A stretch of DNA of 64,000 bases. Source: Burkholderia puraquae. GTDB lineage: Bacteria; Pseudomonadota; Gammaproteobacteria; Burkholderiales; Burkholderiaceae. This document shows positions 4,201-32,994 of this stretch, one piece after another. The notes beneath the pieces were generated by a model. It worked only from the letters and a program-made list of their open reading frames with translations. It was not told the origin of the DNA and did no database searches. The position numbers and the translations under genes are program-made. The number at the start of each line of letters is the position of its first letter. Position 1 is the stretch's first letter. Location of the stretch: NCBI RefSeq assembly GCF_002099195.1, contig NZ_NBYX01000013.1, positions 62,001 to 126,000 on the forward strand, given 5' to 3'.

Positions 4201-5100
4201 TCATATCGCCCACTGCGCCTCGATCAGCCGCAGCGCGGCAGCGATCGCCGGTTCGTCGCACCGCTCGGCGAGCGTCACGAAGGTCAGTTCGGTCGGCACC
4301 GTCACGTGTTCGACGATCGTCAGCGCATGCGCGTGCGCCTCGGCCAGCGCGGTCGAGGCGCGCGCGAGCGTCAACCCGATGCCCGATTTGACGAGATCGA
4401 GCATCGACTGCTCCTGGTCGACCTCGGCAACCTTGACCGGCTGCGTGCCGGCATCCGCGAAGCGCCGCGACAGCAGCCGGTGGTGTGCGGACGCAGGCGG
4501 CGTCCAGATCCACGGCAGCGTGGCAAGCGAGCGCCAGTCGTGTGCGCGCTGCACGCGCTCCTTCCAGCCGGCCGGCGCGAGCACACGGTACTGGAAATGC
4601 GTGAGCGTGACGGTGTGGAACAGTGCGCTGTCGAGCGGATCGTCCTCGCCCGGCCGGCCGATGTAATAGCCGACGTCGAGCGCTTGCGTGCGCACCTGTT
4701 CGATCACCCAGCCCGACATCCCGTGCCGCAGTGCGGTTTCGATCTGCGGATGGGTTTCGACGAGCGCGCGCAGGAAGCCGCCGAGCCGCAGGAAGCCCGG
4801 ATCGAGGATCGTGCCGATCCGCAACCGGCCGCGCACCTCGTGCCGCAGCGCAGCAGCGGCGCGCTGCACGTCGGCGGCGGCGGCGAGCGCGCGTTCCGCA
4901 TGCGGCAGCAGCGTCTGGCCGTCGCGCGTGAGCGCGAGCCCGCGCGACGTGCGCGTAAACAGCGTGACGCCGAGCGTTTCCTGCAGATGCTTGATCTGCA
5001 GGCTGACGGCCGGCTGCGTCAGGTGCAGTTGCACGGCGGCGCGCGTCAGGTTGCCTTCGCGCGCGACCGTCGCGAACGCGCGGAGCAGGGTGAGATCCAT
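4201..5100 (-). CDS. LysR-family transcriptional regulator
   Basis: A 299-residue LysR-type regulator. The N-terminal winged helix-turn-helix (1-60) reads MDLTLLRAFATVAREGNLTR, then LTQPAVSLQIKHLQE and the wing GVTLFTRTSRGLALT. The remainder is the periplasmic-binding-protein-like effector domain. The start at 5100 matches the family's M-[DN]-x-x-x-L-x-x-F. It is divergent from the GMC oxidoreductase at 5608, but a 330-bp repeat array lies between. Its target and inducer are unknown; the divergent GMC gene is a candidate. Confidence 0.92.
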   Translation of the reverse strand: MDLTLLRAFATVAREGNLTRAAVQLHLTQPAVSLQIKHLQETLGVTLFTRTSRGLALTRDGQTLLPHAERALAAAADVQRAAAALRHEVRGRLRIGTILDPGFLRLGGFLRALVETHPQIETALRHGMSGWVIEQVRTQALDVGYYIGRPGEDDPLDSALFHTVTLTHFQYRVLAPAGWKERVQRAHDWRSLATLPWIWTPPASAHHRLLSRRFADAGTQPVKVAEVDQEQSMLDLVKSGIGLTLARASTALAEAHAHALTIVEHVTVPTELTFVTLAERCDEPAIAAALRLIEAQWAI

Positions 5101-5277
5101 CGTCGTGATATGAGCGCGGCTTATAACGCAGTTCAGCATAACTCATTGGATCGGCGGCCGGCAGCCGGAGTACGCTTCATCGGTCGTGGCGCGCAGGGCA
5201 GCAAGCGCGGCGCGCGACGCACTATGCTGGAAATGACGCGCGGTATTGCGCCGCGTGGCGGACAACAATGAGATTTG

Positions 5278-5595
5278 GATGGGGCCAGTGCCGGCGTTGA
5301 GGCGCTCACTCGGGTCGACCGCCGTGGGGATGGAGTGGGTGCTGAAGTGCCAGCTCCAGCCGGCCACGCGATGGGGCCAGAGTAAGCGCTGAAGTGCCAA
5401 CTCCAGCCAACCACGCCATGGAACCAGAGTAAGCGCTAAAGCGCCAACTCTGGTCGACCGCCGTGGGGCTGGAGTAAGCGCTAAAGCGCTAACTCTGGTC
5501 GACCGCCGTGGGGCTGGAGTAAGCGCTGAAGCGCTAACTCCAGCCAACCACGCCATGGGACCAGAGTAAGCGCTAAAGCGCTAACTCTGGTCGAC
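5278..5595. repeat. tandem array of seven 30-nt hairpin repeats
   Basis: Seven copies of a 30-nt imperfect palindrome start at 5285, 5330, 5377, 5424, 5469, 5514 and 5561, spaced 45 or 47 bp apart. The best copies have a 7-bp outer stem, an A.A mismatch, an inner AGCGCT/AGCGCT stem and a GA or AA tip. Outer stems change together: CTGGAGT pairs with ACTCCAG in copy 6, and CCAGAGT pairs with ACTCTGG in copies 4 and 7. Linkers alternate between TCGACCGCCGTGGGG and a form with CCAACCACGCCATGG. The last copy ends 17 nt before the GTG of the GMC gene and its linker runs into CGACAGGAG, the ribosome binding site. The same element recurs upstream of atpC. Confidence 0.9.
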
Positions 5596-5607
5596 AGGAG
5601 ACACACC

Positions 5608-7293
5608 GTGACTACTCGACGCACGCTAGAAGGCGAATTCGATTACGTGATCGTCGGCGCGGGCACCGCGGGCTGCGTGCTCGCGAACCGCCTGACTGAA
5701 GACCCCGACATCCGCGTGCTGCTGCTCGAAGCGGGCGGCAAGGACGACTATCACTGGATCCACATTCCGGTCGGCTATCTATATTGCATCGGCAACCCGC
5801 GCACCGACTGGCTGTACAAAACGCAACCCGAAGCGGCGCTCAACGGCCGGGCGCTGTCGTATCCGCGCGGCCGCGTTCTCGGCGGCTGCTCGTCGATCAA
5901 CGGGATGATCTACATGCGCGGCCAGCGCGAGGATTACGACAGCTGGGCGCAGGAAACCGGCGACGCCGGCTGGTCATGGGACAGCGTGCTGCCGATCTTC
6001 AAGCGCAGCGAGGATCACCATGCGGGCGCAAGCGACGCGCATGGCGCGGGCGGTTACTGGCGCGTCGAGAAGCAACGGCTGCGCTGGGAGATCCTCGAAT
6101 CGTTCGCGCAGGCCGCGCAGCAGACGGGCATCCCGGCAACCGACGACTTCAATCGCGGCGACAATGCCGGGGTCGGCTATTTCGAGGTGAACCAGAAGCG
6201 CGGCGTGCGCTGGAATACGTCGAAGGCGTTCCTGCGGCCCGCGATGGCGCGCCCGAACCTGACCGTGATCACCGGCGCACAGGCGCAGCGCGTGATCTTC
6301 GATGGGCGGCGCGCAGTCGGCGTCGAATATCACGGCGGCGGCACCGATTACGTTGCACGGGCGCGCTCGGAGGTGCTGCTGACGTCCGGCGCCGTGAATT
6401 CGCCGCAGCTGCTCGAGCTGTCGGGTATCGGCGATGGCCGGCGGCTGCAGGCGCTCGGCATCGACGTCGTGCAGGATCTGCCGGGCGTCGGCGAAAACCT
6501 GCAGGATCACCTGCAATTGCGGATGGCGTTTCGCGTCGAAGGTGTGCGCACGCTCAACACGCTGTCCGCACACTGGTGGGGCAAGCTGATGATCGGCGCC
6601 GAATATGCGTTGCTGCAGCGCGGGCCGATGTCGATGGCGCCGTCGCAGCTCGGCGCGTTCGCCAAATCCGACCCGGACGATCCCGCGCTCACGCGCCCCG
6701 ATCTCGAATACCACGTGCAACCGCTGTCGCTCGAACGCTTCGGCGAGCCGCTGCACAGCTTCAACGCGTTTACGGCGTCCGTGTGCCATCTGCGGCCGAC
6801 GTCACGCGGCAGCGTGCATATCGCGAGCGCCGATCCGGGCAGCGCACCCGCAATCGCGCCGAACTATCTGTCGACCGACCATGATCGCCATGTCGCCGCG
6901 AACGCGTTGCGCCTCACGCGCCGGATCGCGTCCGCACCGGCGCTCGCGCGCTATCGTCCCGAGGAAATCCTGCCGGGCACGCAGTACCGGAGCGAAGCCG
7001 AGCTGATCGAGGCGGCGGGCGCGGTCGGCACGACGATCTTCCATCCGGTCGGCACCTGCCGGATGGGGCGTGCCGACGATGAGCGTGCGGTGGTCGACAG
7101 CCGGCTTCGCGTGCGCGGCATCGCCGGGCTGCGGATCGTCGATGCGTCGGTGATGCCGTTCATCACATCGGGCAATACCAATTCGCCGACACTGATGATC
7201 GCCGAACGCGCGAGCGACATGATCCGTGCCGATCGCCGCGCGGCACGCGAAGCGACGCCGGTGCACACGGAGCCCGCGGTGACAGCCGCGTGA
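5608..7293 (+). CDS. GMC-family FAD-dependent oxidoreductase (choline dehydrogenase-like)
   Basis: A 561-residue flavoprotein. The N-terminal Rossmann motif VGAGTAGC (17-24) binds the ADP part of FAD, followed by the GMC signature PRGRVLGGCSSINGM (about 89-103) and the second signature SGAVNSPQLLELSGIG. The active-site pair is H479 (FHPVGTCRMG) and N523 (NTNSPTL), 44 residues apart as in choline oxidase. There is no signal peptide. Substrate is an alcohol, but which one is not clear; choline dehydrogenase, alkanol dehydrogenase and others share this pattern. It starts with GTG at 5608 behind AGGAG. It precedes an ABC transporter operon by 460 bp, so a functional link is possible but unproven. 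Confidence 0.9.
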   Translation: MTTRRTLEGEFDYVIVGAGTAGCVLANRLTEDPDIRVLLLEAGGKDDYHWIHIPVGYLYCIGNPRTDWLYKTQPEAALNGRALSYPRGRVLGGCSSINGMIYMRGQREDYDSWAQETGDAGWSWDSVLPIFKRSEDHHAGASDAHGAGGYWRVEKQRLRWEILESFAQAAQQTGIPATDDFNRGDNAGVGYFEVNQKRGVRWNTSKAFLRPAMARPNLTVITGAQAQRVIFDGRRAVGVEYHGGGTDYVARARSEVLLTSGAVNSPQLLELSGIGDGRRLQALGIDVVQDLPGVGENLQDHLQLRMAFRVEGVRTLNTLSAHWWGKLMIGAEYALLQRGPMSMAPSQLGAFAKSDPDDPALTRPDLEYHVQPLSLERFGEPLHSFNAFTASVCHLRPTSRGSVHIASADPGSAPAIAPNYLSTDHDRHVAANALRLTRRIASAPALARYRPEEILPGTQYRSEAELIEAAGAVGTTIFHPVGTCRMGRADDERAVVDSRLRVRGIAGLRIVDASVMPFITSGNTNSPTLMIAERASDMIRADRRAAREATPVHTEPAVTAA

Positions 7294-32429: not shown

Positions 32430-32559
32430 GATCGGCGCAGGCGCGCAAGTGCCTGCTCCGATCGGCCGCCGTGGGGCCAGCGCAAGCGCTGAAGCGCTAA
32501 CGCGGGCCAACCACGGCATGGGACGGGAGTAAGTGCTGAAGCGCTAGCTCCCGCCGACA
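32430..32559. repeat. three hairpin repeats between atpD and atpC, same family as the 5.3-kb array
   Basis: Two copies of the 30-nt element are at 32477-32506 and 32524-32553, joined by GGCCAACCACGGCATGGGA, a linker of the same type as in the 5.3-kb array. The second has outer stem CGGGAGT/GCTCCCG and inner AGTGCT/AGCGCT; both stems rely on a G.U pair, which favours an RNA-level structure. A related hairpin with GATCGG/CCGATC and GCAGGC/GCCTGC stems lies at 32430-32463, followed by GGCCGCCGTGGGG. The last copy ends 15 nt before the atpC ATG and leads into CGACAGGAG, exactly as it does before the GMC gene. Confidence 0.9.
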
Positions 32560-32568
32560 GGAGTCGTT

Positions 32569-32994
32569 ATGGCAACCATCAAAGTAGACGTCGTCAGCGC
32601 GGAAGAGCAGATCTTCTCGGGCGAGGCGAAATTCGTCGCGCTGCCGGGCGAAACGGGTGAGCTGGGTATTCTGCCGGGCCACACGCCGCTGATCACGCGG
32701 ATTCGTCCGGGTGCGGTGCGCATCGAAGTCGAGGGCGGCAACGACGAATTCGTGTTCGTCGCGGGCGGCATTCTCGAAGTGCAGCCGGGCGCCGTGACGG
32801 TGCTCGCCGATACCGCGATCCGCGGCAAGGACCTCGACGCGGCGAAAGCCGAGGAAGCACGCAAGCGTGCCGAGGAAACGCTGCAGAACGCGAAGTCGGA
32901 TCTCGACCTCGCAAAGGCGCAATCCGAGCTCGCGACCGCAATGGCGCAACTCGAGGCGATCCAGCGTCTGGCGAAGATTCGCAGCCGGCACTGA
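32569..32994 (+). CDS. atpC: F0F1 ATP synthase subunit epsilon
   Basis: A 141-residue regulatory subunit of F1: an N-terminal beta-sandwich (to about 85, with [21 protein letters not shown]) and a C-terminal helical hairpin ([16 protein letters not shown], then [14 protein letters not shown]) that can inhibit ATP hydrolysis. The ribosome binding site is the CAGGAG that ends the hairpin repeat. It is the last gene of the operon, with a terminator 25 bp after the stop. Confidence 0.98.

Follow-up and report, generated by a model that had tools for sequence, protein, structure and literature searches.

A hairpin array upstream of a GMC oxidoreductase gene is one of many dispersed copies of a Burkholderia palindrome that in its behavior resembles an insertion element more than a dedicated regulator

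The window, by which we mean the whole stretch of 64,000 nucleotides that was analysed, carries two arrays of a short palindromic hairpin. The first separates a divergent open reading frame (ORF) from the gene of a GMC oxidoreductase, while the second is located inside an operon, downstream of a gene read by its letters as atpD and upstream of atpC. The features referred to throughout are the following:

4201-5139, minus strand: divergent ORF, LysR-like by reading of its letters, separated from the GMC gene by the array
5285..5314, plus strand: copy 1, decayed hairpin, 14/20 core letters
5330..5359, plus strand: copy 2, decayed by core-letter count, class X, with linkers that continue the stem
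5377..5406, plus strand: copy 3, hybrid stem CCAGAGT/ACTCCAG with C.A and A.C mismatches
5424..5453, plus strand: copy 4, class S, CCAGAGT/ACTCTGG, match of covariance model R1
5469..5498, plus strand: copy 5, hybrid stem with G.U pairs, match of covariance model R1
5514..5543, plus strand: copy 6, class X, CTGGAGT/ACTCCAG, with GTGGGG and CCAACCAC linkers on either side, from the fold
5559..5592, plus strand: copy 7, the 34-nt hairpin proximal to the Shine-Dalgarno sequence (SD), R1 match with E 5.8e-12 and fold
5593..5595, plus strand: GAC, right end of the element, from the sequence
5596..5600, plus strand: SD AGGAG, gap of 0 from the element, from the sequence
5608..7293, plus strand: GMC oxidoreductase, 561 aa, GTG start, Pfam PF00732 and PF05199
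32424..32559, plus strand: second array, three units, upstream of atpC, from BLAST and pattern
32559..32563, plus strand: SD AGGAG of atpC
32569..32994, plus strand: atpC (ATP synthase epsilon), Pfam PF02823

The seven 30-nt copies of the GMC-side array start at 5285, 5330, 5377, 5424, 5469, 5514 and 5561, with spacings, in order, of 45, 47, 47, 45, 45 and 47 bp, in line with the seven copies at 45 or 47 bp described in the initial annotation. The array ends 3 nt before the AGGAG of the GMC oxidoreductase gene, these three letters being the GAC of the element, and the annotated transition from the last copy into a ribosome-binding site is thereby borne out. The same annotation had proposed a fixed 30-nt hairpin with a 7-bp outer stem. 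Folding itself is well supported, with 5500-5640 reaching -68.7 kcal/mol compared to -41.4 +/- 3.5 for shuffled sequences (z -7.9; 0/200 as good), but the size needs revision, as the outer stem comprises 9 bp (GACCAGAGT/ACTCTGGTC), making the full hairpin 34 nt; copy 7 folds into this 9-bp outer stem, an A.A mismatch, a 5-bp inner stem and a UAAA loop. The architecture is also not fixed in all copies: by core-letter count copies 5-7 are perfect, whereas copies 1 and 2 have decayed to 14/20.

Two classes of unit can be distinguished, class S with the linkers CATGGGA and TCGAC, and class X, in which GTGGGG and CCAACCAC linkers prolong the stem. Since linkers and stems agree, we read copies 3 and 5 as probable recombinants that combine half of an S unit with half of an X unit, in which case the "covariation" inside the array reduces to two classes plus hybrids. 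The G.U wobble attributed to the hybrids is found on the mRNA strand of copy 5, but copy 3 carries C.A and A.C mismatches instead. A scan of 5100-5700 for intrinsic terminators (a stem followed by a T run) returned 0, on which grounds a terminator or attenuator reading of this array was rejected. Rfam 15, searched at gathering thresholds across the 64-kb window, places no family on the array and only RF02423 and RF02865 elsewhere; these are the known Burkholderia sRNAs Bp1_781 (RF02423; 35033-35259, minus strand) and ncS01 (RF02865; 12732-12842, plus strand). The Rfam family of toxic small RNAs that had been raised as a candidate, RF02278, matches nowhere in the window at its gathering threshold and not in 5200-5660 even with E relaxed to 10. 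Below threshold, Rfam yields 14 matches at E up to 10, led by a miRNA model at 0.005, and these we attribute to chance.

Comparison of copies from many loci defines the element as a palindrome of ~49 bp, consisting of GC-NNN-GCATGG, the 34-nt hairpin and GAC, with the near-fixed core AGCGCT-NN-AGCGCT. Among 150 distinct last units, a set comprising all loci with the orthologous GMC and atpC leaders included, 131 have GAC after the stem, with A as the following base in 125 of them; the other 19 are without GAC at the expected place, several being merely shifted by one base. Right-hand half units (AGCTAAAGCGC.AACTC..GTCGAC) occur after a full unit at L091, L094, L097, L190 and L192, pointing to possible deletions between palindrome centres.

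In order to assess its distribution, the array was compared to the source genome by BLAST, which returned 19 places including the query array, and a covariance model (R1) was built from 32 units of that genome. R1 has 59 matches there at E up to 0.1, of which 4 are antisense echoes of palindromes. Within the genus, the covariance-model search suggested by the initial annotation detects the element in all 41 sampled genomes (E up to 0.001), with 5 to 66 matches each, and within the family in 56 of 150 genomes and 8 of 25 genera (E up to 1e-4). Across the order, at E up to 1e-5 and with stricter filters, 2 of 250 genomes match, the source genome and G049; both belong to the source family, and none outside it matches. 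The order-wide listing names 22 genomes, 7 of them from the source family, and 228 match-free genomes are unlisted. Named records with the exact pattern, a stringency that yields 5 hits only, are from Burkholderia ambifaria and four Paraburkholderia species. The array is one of many dispersed copies and not a single-locus regulator.

To analyze the placement of the copies, array loci were fetched from four genomes (24 from the source genome, 19 from G006, 13 from G166 and 10 from G160, the last two sets being partial and drawn from the higher-scoring matches). Units were called with a custom pattern finder, whose thresholds vary between analyses, and several locus sets were selected by score. 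The finder called 56 arrays, among them one palindrome echo (L010, minus) and one G006 locus recurring four times (L187, perhaps an rRNA operon), and no array at L052-L054, L183, L185, L186, L196-L199 and L207. With an SD within 45 nt and an ORF no shorter than 40 codons as the criterion, 44 of the 56 arrays lead, in gene orientation, into SD, start codon and ORF (17/22 in the source genome, 12/16 in G006, 7/9 in G166, 8/9 in G160), compared to 6/56 in the antisense control (4, 1, 0 and 1, respectively). The annotated view of the element as structured, non-random and linked to ribosome-binding sites is thus upheld.

The spacing to the SD is narrow. In the 17 placed arrays of the source genome the gap between GAC and SD is 0 in 10, 2 in 3 and other in 4, and in the 88 of 150 distinct last units where both GAC and SD are present it is 0 nt in 54, 2 in 29, 1 in 2 and larger in 3. 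An SD is absent by pattern from 43 of the 150, of which 22 form a set inside small ORFs (18 in L071-L087, L015, L201 and two in L283), with terminator A-tracts, half units and internal units among the others. Of the arrays with at least two units, 52/59 end at an SD, and in these 52 the SD-proximal unit is better preserved than the farthest one, both in core match (better in 39, worse in 2, tied in 11) and in pairs (better in 34, worse in 1, tied in 17).

Other settings occur as well. Hairpins are found beside the T-tract of an apparent intrinsic terminator (GAC|AAAAAA) at L087, L100, L200, L307 and L308, and the edge of such T-tracts is an apparent second target class. At L014, L182 and L276, which appear to be equivalent positions in three genomes from two genera, a single hairpin precedes CAAGTCCGGCGCA, with no SD next to it in its own orientation. 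In G072, 19/23 array ends carry one identical 34-mer (in 20 loci picked for equal scores), and most units are contained, in antisense direction, in a repeated small ORF, apparently in frame from the letters; the unfilled form CCCACGCTCACNNNCGTTCGCTGCCCCC occurs there at 62 places with at most 1 mismatch. This dispersed small ORF has its own SD (L071-L087 and L283-L294 in G072, G052 and G088; L015 and L016 in the source genome), its product reads about M-N-x-P-H-A-H-x-R-S-L-P-P-E-G-A-D-A-S-L-G-A-A-R-R-E-A-S, and its stop often overlaps the next start (ATGA), as expected of a putative repeated translational-coupling leader.

The genes behind the arrays show no shared function. Of the 17 downstream products scanned in the source genome, 16 could be named and are unrelated: GMC oxidoreductase, HpaD, an MFS transporter, an aldehyde dehydrogenase, an acyl-CoA dehydrogenase, an ornithine cyclodeaminase-like protein, AtpC, an alpha/beta hydrolase, a sigma-54 activator, an acyl-CoA ligase, ExbD/TolR, NadA, methylcitrate synthase, TrpA, a methyltransferase and an M24 peptidase. 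A 61-aa downstream ORF gave no family on the scan, and a 25-aa ORF after L008 stands outside the 17 products.

Orthologous leaders allow filled and unfilled forms of one site to be compared. At atpC, leaders were examined in 51 of 61 genomes, with a hairpin in 32, a clean empty site in 6 (L212, L225, L226, L250, L253, L254), scars in 9 identified by script and in L234 and L255 by eye, and other forms in L256 and L258. The empty leader reads ACGCTCAACC|AGGAGTCGAT (CAACC|AGGAG), and the filled leader has 48-50 nt between those letters (e.g. L209, L235, L252); at this site, the only one worked out to the base, no letters are duplicated. The scars read (C/G)ATGAGATTGGAGTCGAT or near it and have the appearance of a recombination between the SD and the GGAGT within the stem itself. 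Some atpC hairpins have strongly changed letters (e.g. L210, L242), and their retention in 32/51 leaders, in part in such changed form, suggests some constraint. A different palindrome, GATTCTCCT..AGGAGACACGG, lies in the gap upstream of the hairpin-less atpC in L226 and L250. In other genera, where printed atpC leaders of 29 genomes were read by eye (L324 being a second copy in one genome), 7 have the empty site given above or one almost identical to it (L295, L296, L300, L308, L309, L313, L317), 7 a filled site (L297, L298, L301, L307, L310, L315, L316) and 4 a scar-like leader (L303, L311, L312, L314), with 11 uncalled.

At the GMC gene, 57 of 61 genomes were readable, 20 with 1 to 6 units and 37 without; an SD-like stretch is still visible in the hairpin-less leaders. 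In L111, the nearest empty relative, ~20 nt are missing beyond the array, and therefore the GMC loss is not precise. On a tree of 30 GMC genes (from 30/61 genomes) presence and absence change 7 times, compared to a mean of 10.2 and a least value of 5 in shuffled data; turnover of the hairpin here looks fast, with gain and loss not separated. Empty sites within the genus could be precise losses, homologous replacements or separate insertions. The absence or scarring of the hairpin at the same gene (GMC 20/57 and atpC 32/51 with hairpin), as well as the lack of a common downstream function, speak against the dedicated regulator envisaged initially; the element behaves more like an insertion element.

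On balance we favor the explanation that the array is built of tandem copies of a mobile palindrome of ~49 bp from Burkholderia and close relatives, and by the same measure that this element probably goes in at the 5' edge of a purine-rich, A-initial site, above all AGGAG, and leaves the target unduplicated. The observations on which this explanation builds are the dispersal, the orientation, the SD gap of 0 or 2 nt, the empty and filled sites, the deletion scars, the decay gradient and the covariation. On insertion the element's 3' end would face the gene. Movement would proceed via a single-stranded hairpin intermediate, as the absence of target duplication suggests, and its strand would be recognizable by the conserved A.A mismatch. 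New copies would land between the array and the SD, making the nearest copy the youngest, and arrays would also grow by unequal recombination, which would give rise to the hybrids; in the mRNA, each copy would fold on itself beside the SD, and its consequence for the gene would most likely be limited to weakly insulating the SD from the sequence upstream, making the element tolerated or mildly useful and not a dedicated switch. A more far-reaching version, which we put forward only tentatively, is a transposable hairpin with the SD itself (CTCCT on the template strand) as its preferred target, where it would place a self-folding module of 49 nt right against the upstream edge, repeatedly and in one orientation, such that arrays would be time-ordered records of insertion and leaders across the family would have been rewired by a mobile 5'-UTR part.

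The paired stem changes were the argument of the initial annotation for selection on the fold, and between loci they are real. In the 32 units of the source genome 96.0% of cells pair (83.8 in shuffled data), 8 pairs have changes on both sides, and the covariation score is 0.407 vs 0.162. At the orthologous atpC site, 21 distinct hairpins (10/31 were left out for a length other than 34) are 93.9% paired (86.5 shuffled), with 7 such pairs and a score of 0.295 (0.163), while the number of further pair types is not above shuffles (470/500 reach it). Selection acting on the mRNA would be expected to leave more G.U than A.C. This is not seen in 68 SD-proximal hairpins (23 vs 27; outer stem 17:12, inner stem 6:15); the mRNA-strand signal is present in the outer stems of 156 distal hairpins (91:58, p 0.009; inner stem 34:46; overall 125 vs 104), and the inner stems of 41 hairpins away from an SD show its reverse (5:18, p 0.011; overall 28 vs 36). 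Thus, the stems covary between loci, yet this covariation cannot serve as the proof of selection on the mRNA fold that it was taken to be, given that G.U is no commoner than A.C in SD-proximal copies and that template switching can give rise to paired changes.

Template switching during replication (quasi-palindrome correction), which PMC8794818 describes as creating and preserving hairpins, would produce the paired changes with no selection on the fold. This alternative covers the covariation alone, is compatible with the mobile-element explanation, and strikes us as plausible while short of probable. The lack of wobble bias in SD-proximal hairpins and the predominance of Watson-Crick cells (884/952) agree with it, but such correction should remove the A.A mismatch, which 52/68 SD-proximal hairpins keep (A-T in 1), and the inner core letters are near fixed.

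Rather unlikely, in our estimate, is a cis-acting RNA domain under selection, in which the SD-side hairpin would set translation or protect the downstream mRNA and copy number would tune the level. Such a domain would agree with the gene orientation and 0/2-nt spacing, the best preservation in the SD-proximal copy, the pairing excess at the single orthologous atpC site, the G.U excess in distal outer stems, and the location within an operon, before atpC and behind the gene read as atpD. The energetics of the SD point the same way in one comparison: the mean cost of opening it is 2.10 kcal/mol natively vs 2.66 with shuffled arrays (native lower in 47/65, p 3e-5). The cost is 2.50 kcal/mol with the array left out (43/65, p 0.002), and 2.34 with length-matched upstream sequence (38/65, p 0.15), while the last unit alone gives 2.15 and does not differ from the native state. 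These computed energies would fit a weak insulator and no more. Against a selected domain stand the lack of G.U excess at the SD, with the inner stem included, the optional presence at orthologues and loss with scars, the absence of a functional theme downstream, and the fact that some copies border terminator A-tracts or run antisense through small ORFs.

With respect to a mobilizing enzyme, a search for Y1_Tnp (PF01797) in 19 genomes did not identify a transposase for the element: 16 of the 19 have a match, mostly weak, and the 17 Y1_Tnp loci from these 16 genomes contain 0 hairpins within ~1.5 kb on each side. Y1-type enzymes carry HUH, and the Y1-type protein of the source genome has QVQ at the position of this motif. 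A 237-aa RAYT-like protein with QVQ replacing HUH is encoded away from hairpins in six genomes of the genus (L269:1120-1833, L268, L270, L271, L273, L274). That the element is a REP sequence and owes its movement to a REP-associated tyrosine transposase (RAYT), as its size, its mismatch-bearing palindrome, the variable complementary stems, the absent target duplication and the Y1_Tnp matches might indicate, is accordingly improbable, considering the empty Y1_Tnp loci, the QVQ motif and the missing GT(A/G)G head, the antisense strand beginning with GTCG. An operator bound as double-stranded DNA by a repressor or a nucleoid protein, suggested by the palindrome and its near-fixed core, is very improbable, as the outer stem letters vary yet stay paired, which binding to double-stranded DNA does not need, and the SD spacing is fixed. 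An upstream mini-ORF (ATG/GTG/TTG-GGN-NNN-NNN-stop), in frame in 100/131 units of four genomes, can hardly be credited: both codons occupy fixed places of one repeated unit and amount to a single coincidence of ~1 in 3, no SD is seen before the start, and the start is missing in some class X units (L106, L107).

If the mobile-element explanation holds true, a mobile element would target the translation start regions of genes as diverse as atpC, trpA, nadA and an exbD/tolR-like gene, providing a natural portable leader hairpin and revealing a new rule of target choice among small palindromic elements. In dispersed hairpins even strong covariation of the stems would then not have to signal an RNA regulator, and at least one set of "orphan CRISPR" repeats in Paraburkholderia would be accounted for.

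The latter appear in PMC5968390, one of 12 papers whose main text contains one of six 12-letter strings from the core; the element may also be described elsewhere under a different name. Table 4 of PMC5968390 lists GCGTAAGCGCTAAAGCGCTAACGCC of Paraburkholderia terrae as a CRISPR without identified cas genes, and as its letters are those of the hairpin core, it is very probably the same element. Unlike the unique spacers of a CRISPR array, the linkers recur between copies and loci. TERM 264, as described in PMC6045580, is a 49-nt stem-loop that B. pseudomallei carries in the 5' UTR of penA and that ends 25 nt before the ATG and was tested there as a terminator/attenuator; compared by description, it resembles the element in its position shortly upstream of a start codon and in an operon gap. 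Identity with it was rejected, with the R1 match absent at 4/6 class A-like loci of G006 (two are not given as loci). The direct TAACTGA repeats of Beggiatoaceae (PMC4679880) are reported within several nt upstream of the start codons of unrelated genes, and are thus similar to the element in pre-start position and dissimilar in being heptamers.

The closest parallels are small mobile palindromes. Correia/NEMIS and BOX also count among the bacterial MITE-like repeats. Those described in PMC2229807 (ERIC/IRU, YPAL, RUP) are, like the element, small, non-coding, mobile, transcribed with genes, and found in empty and filled sites; in contrast to them, the element measures only ~49 bp, has no terminal TA or target duplication that was seen, and is spaced 0 or 2 nt from the SD. 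REP sequences, in the description of PMC2817692, are short palindromes with a GT(A/G)G head whose inverted copies flank a RAYT gene. The element shares with REP/BIME the short intergenic palindrome with internal mismatch, the dispersal and clustering, and the complementary stem variation, and differs in the head (GTCG on the antisense strand), in flanking no transposase gene (0 matches in the 17 Y1_Tnp loci), in the single orientation of its array copies, and in the position of most checked copies at the SD edge. We file the element as a variant of the small palindromic mobile elements; it departs from the REP and from the MITE definition in at least one tested feature each.
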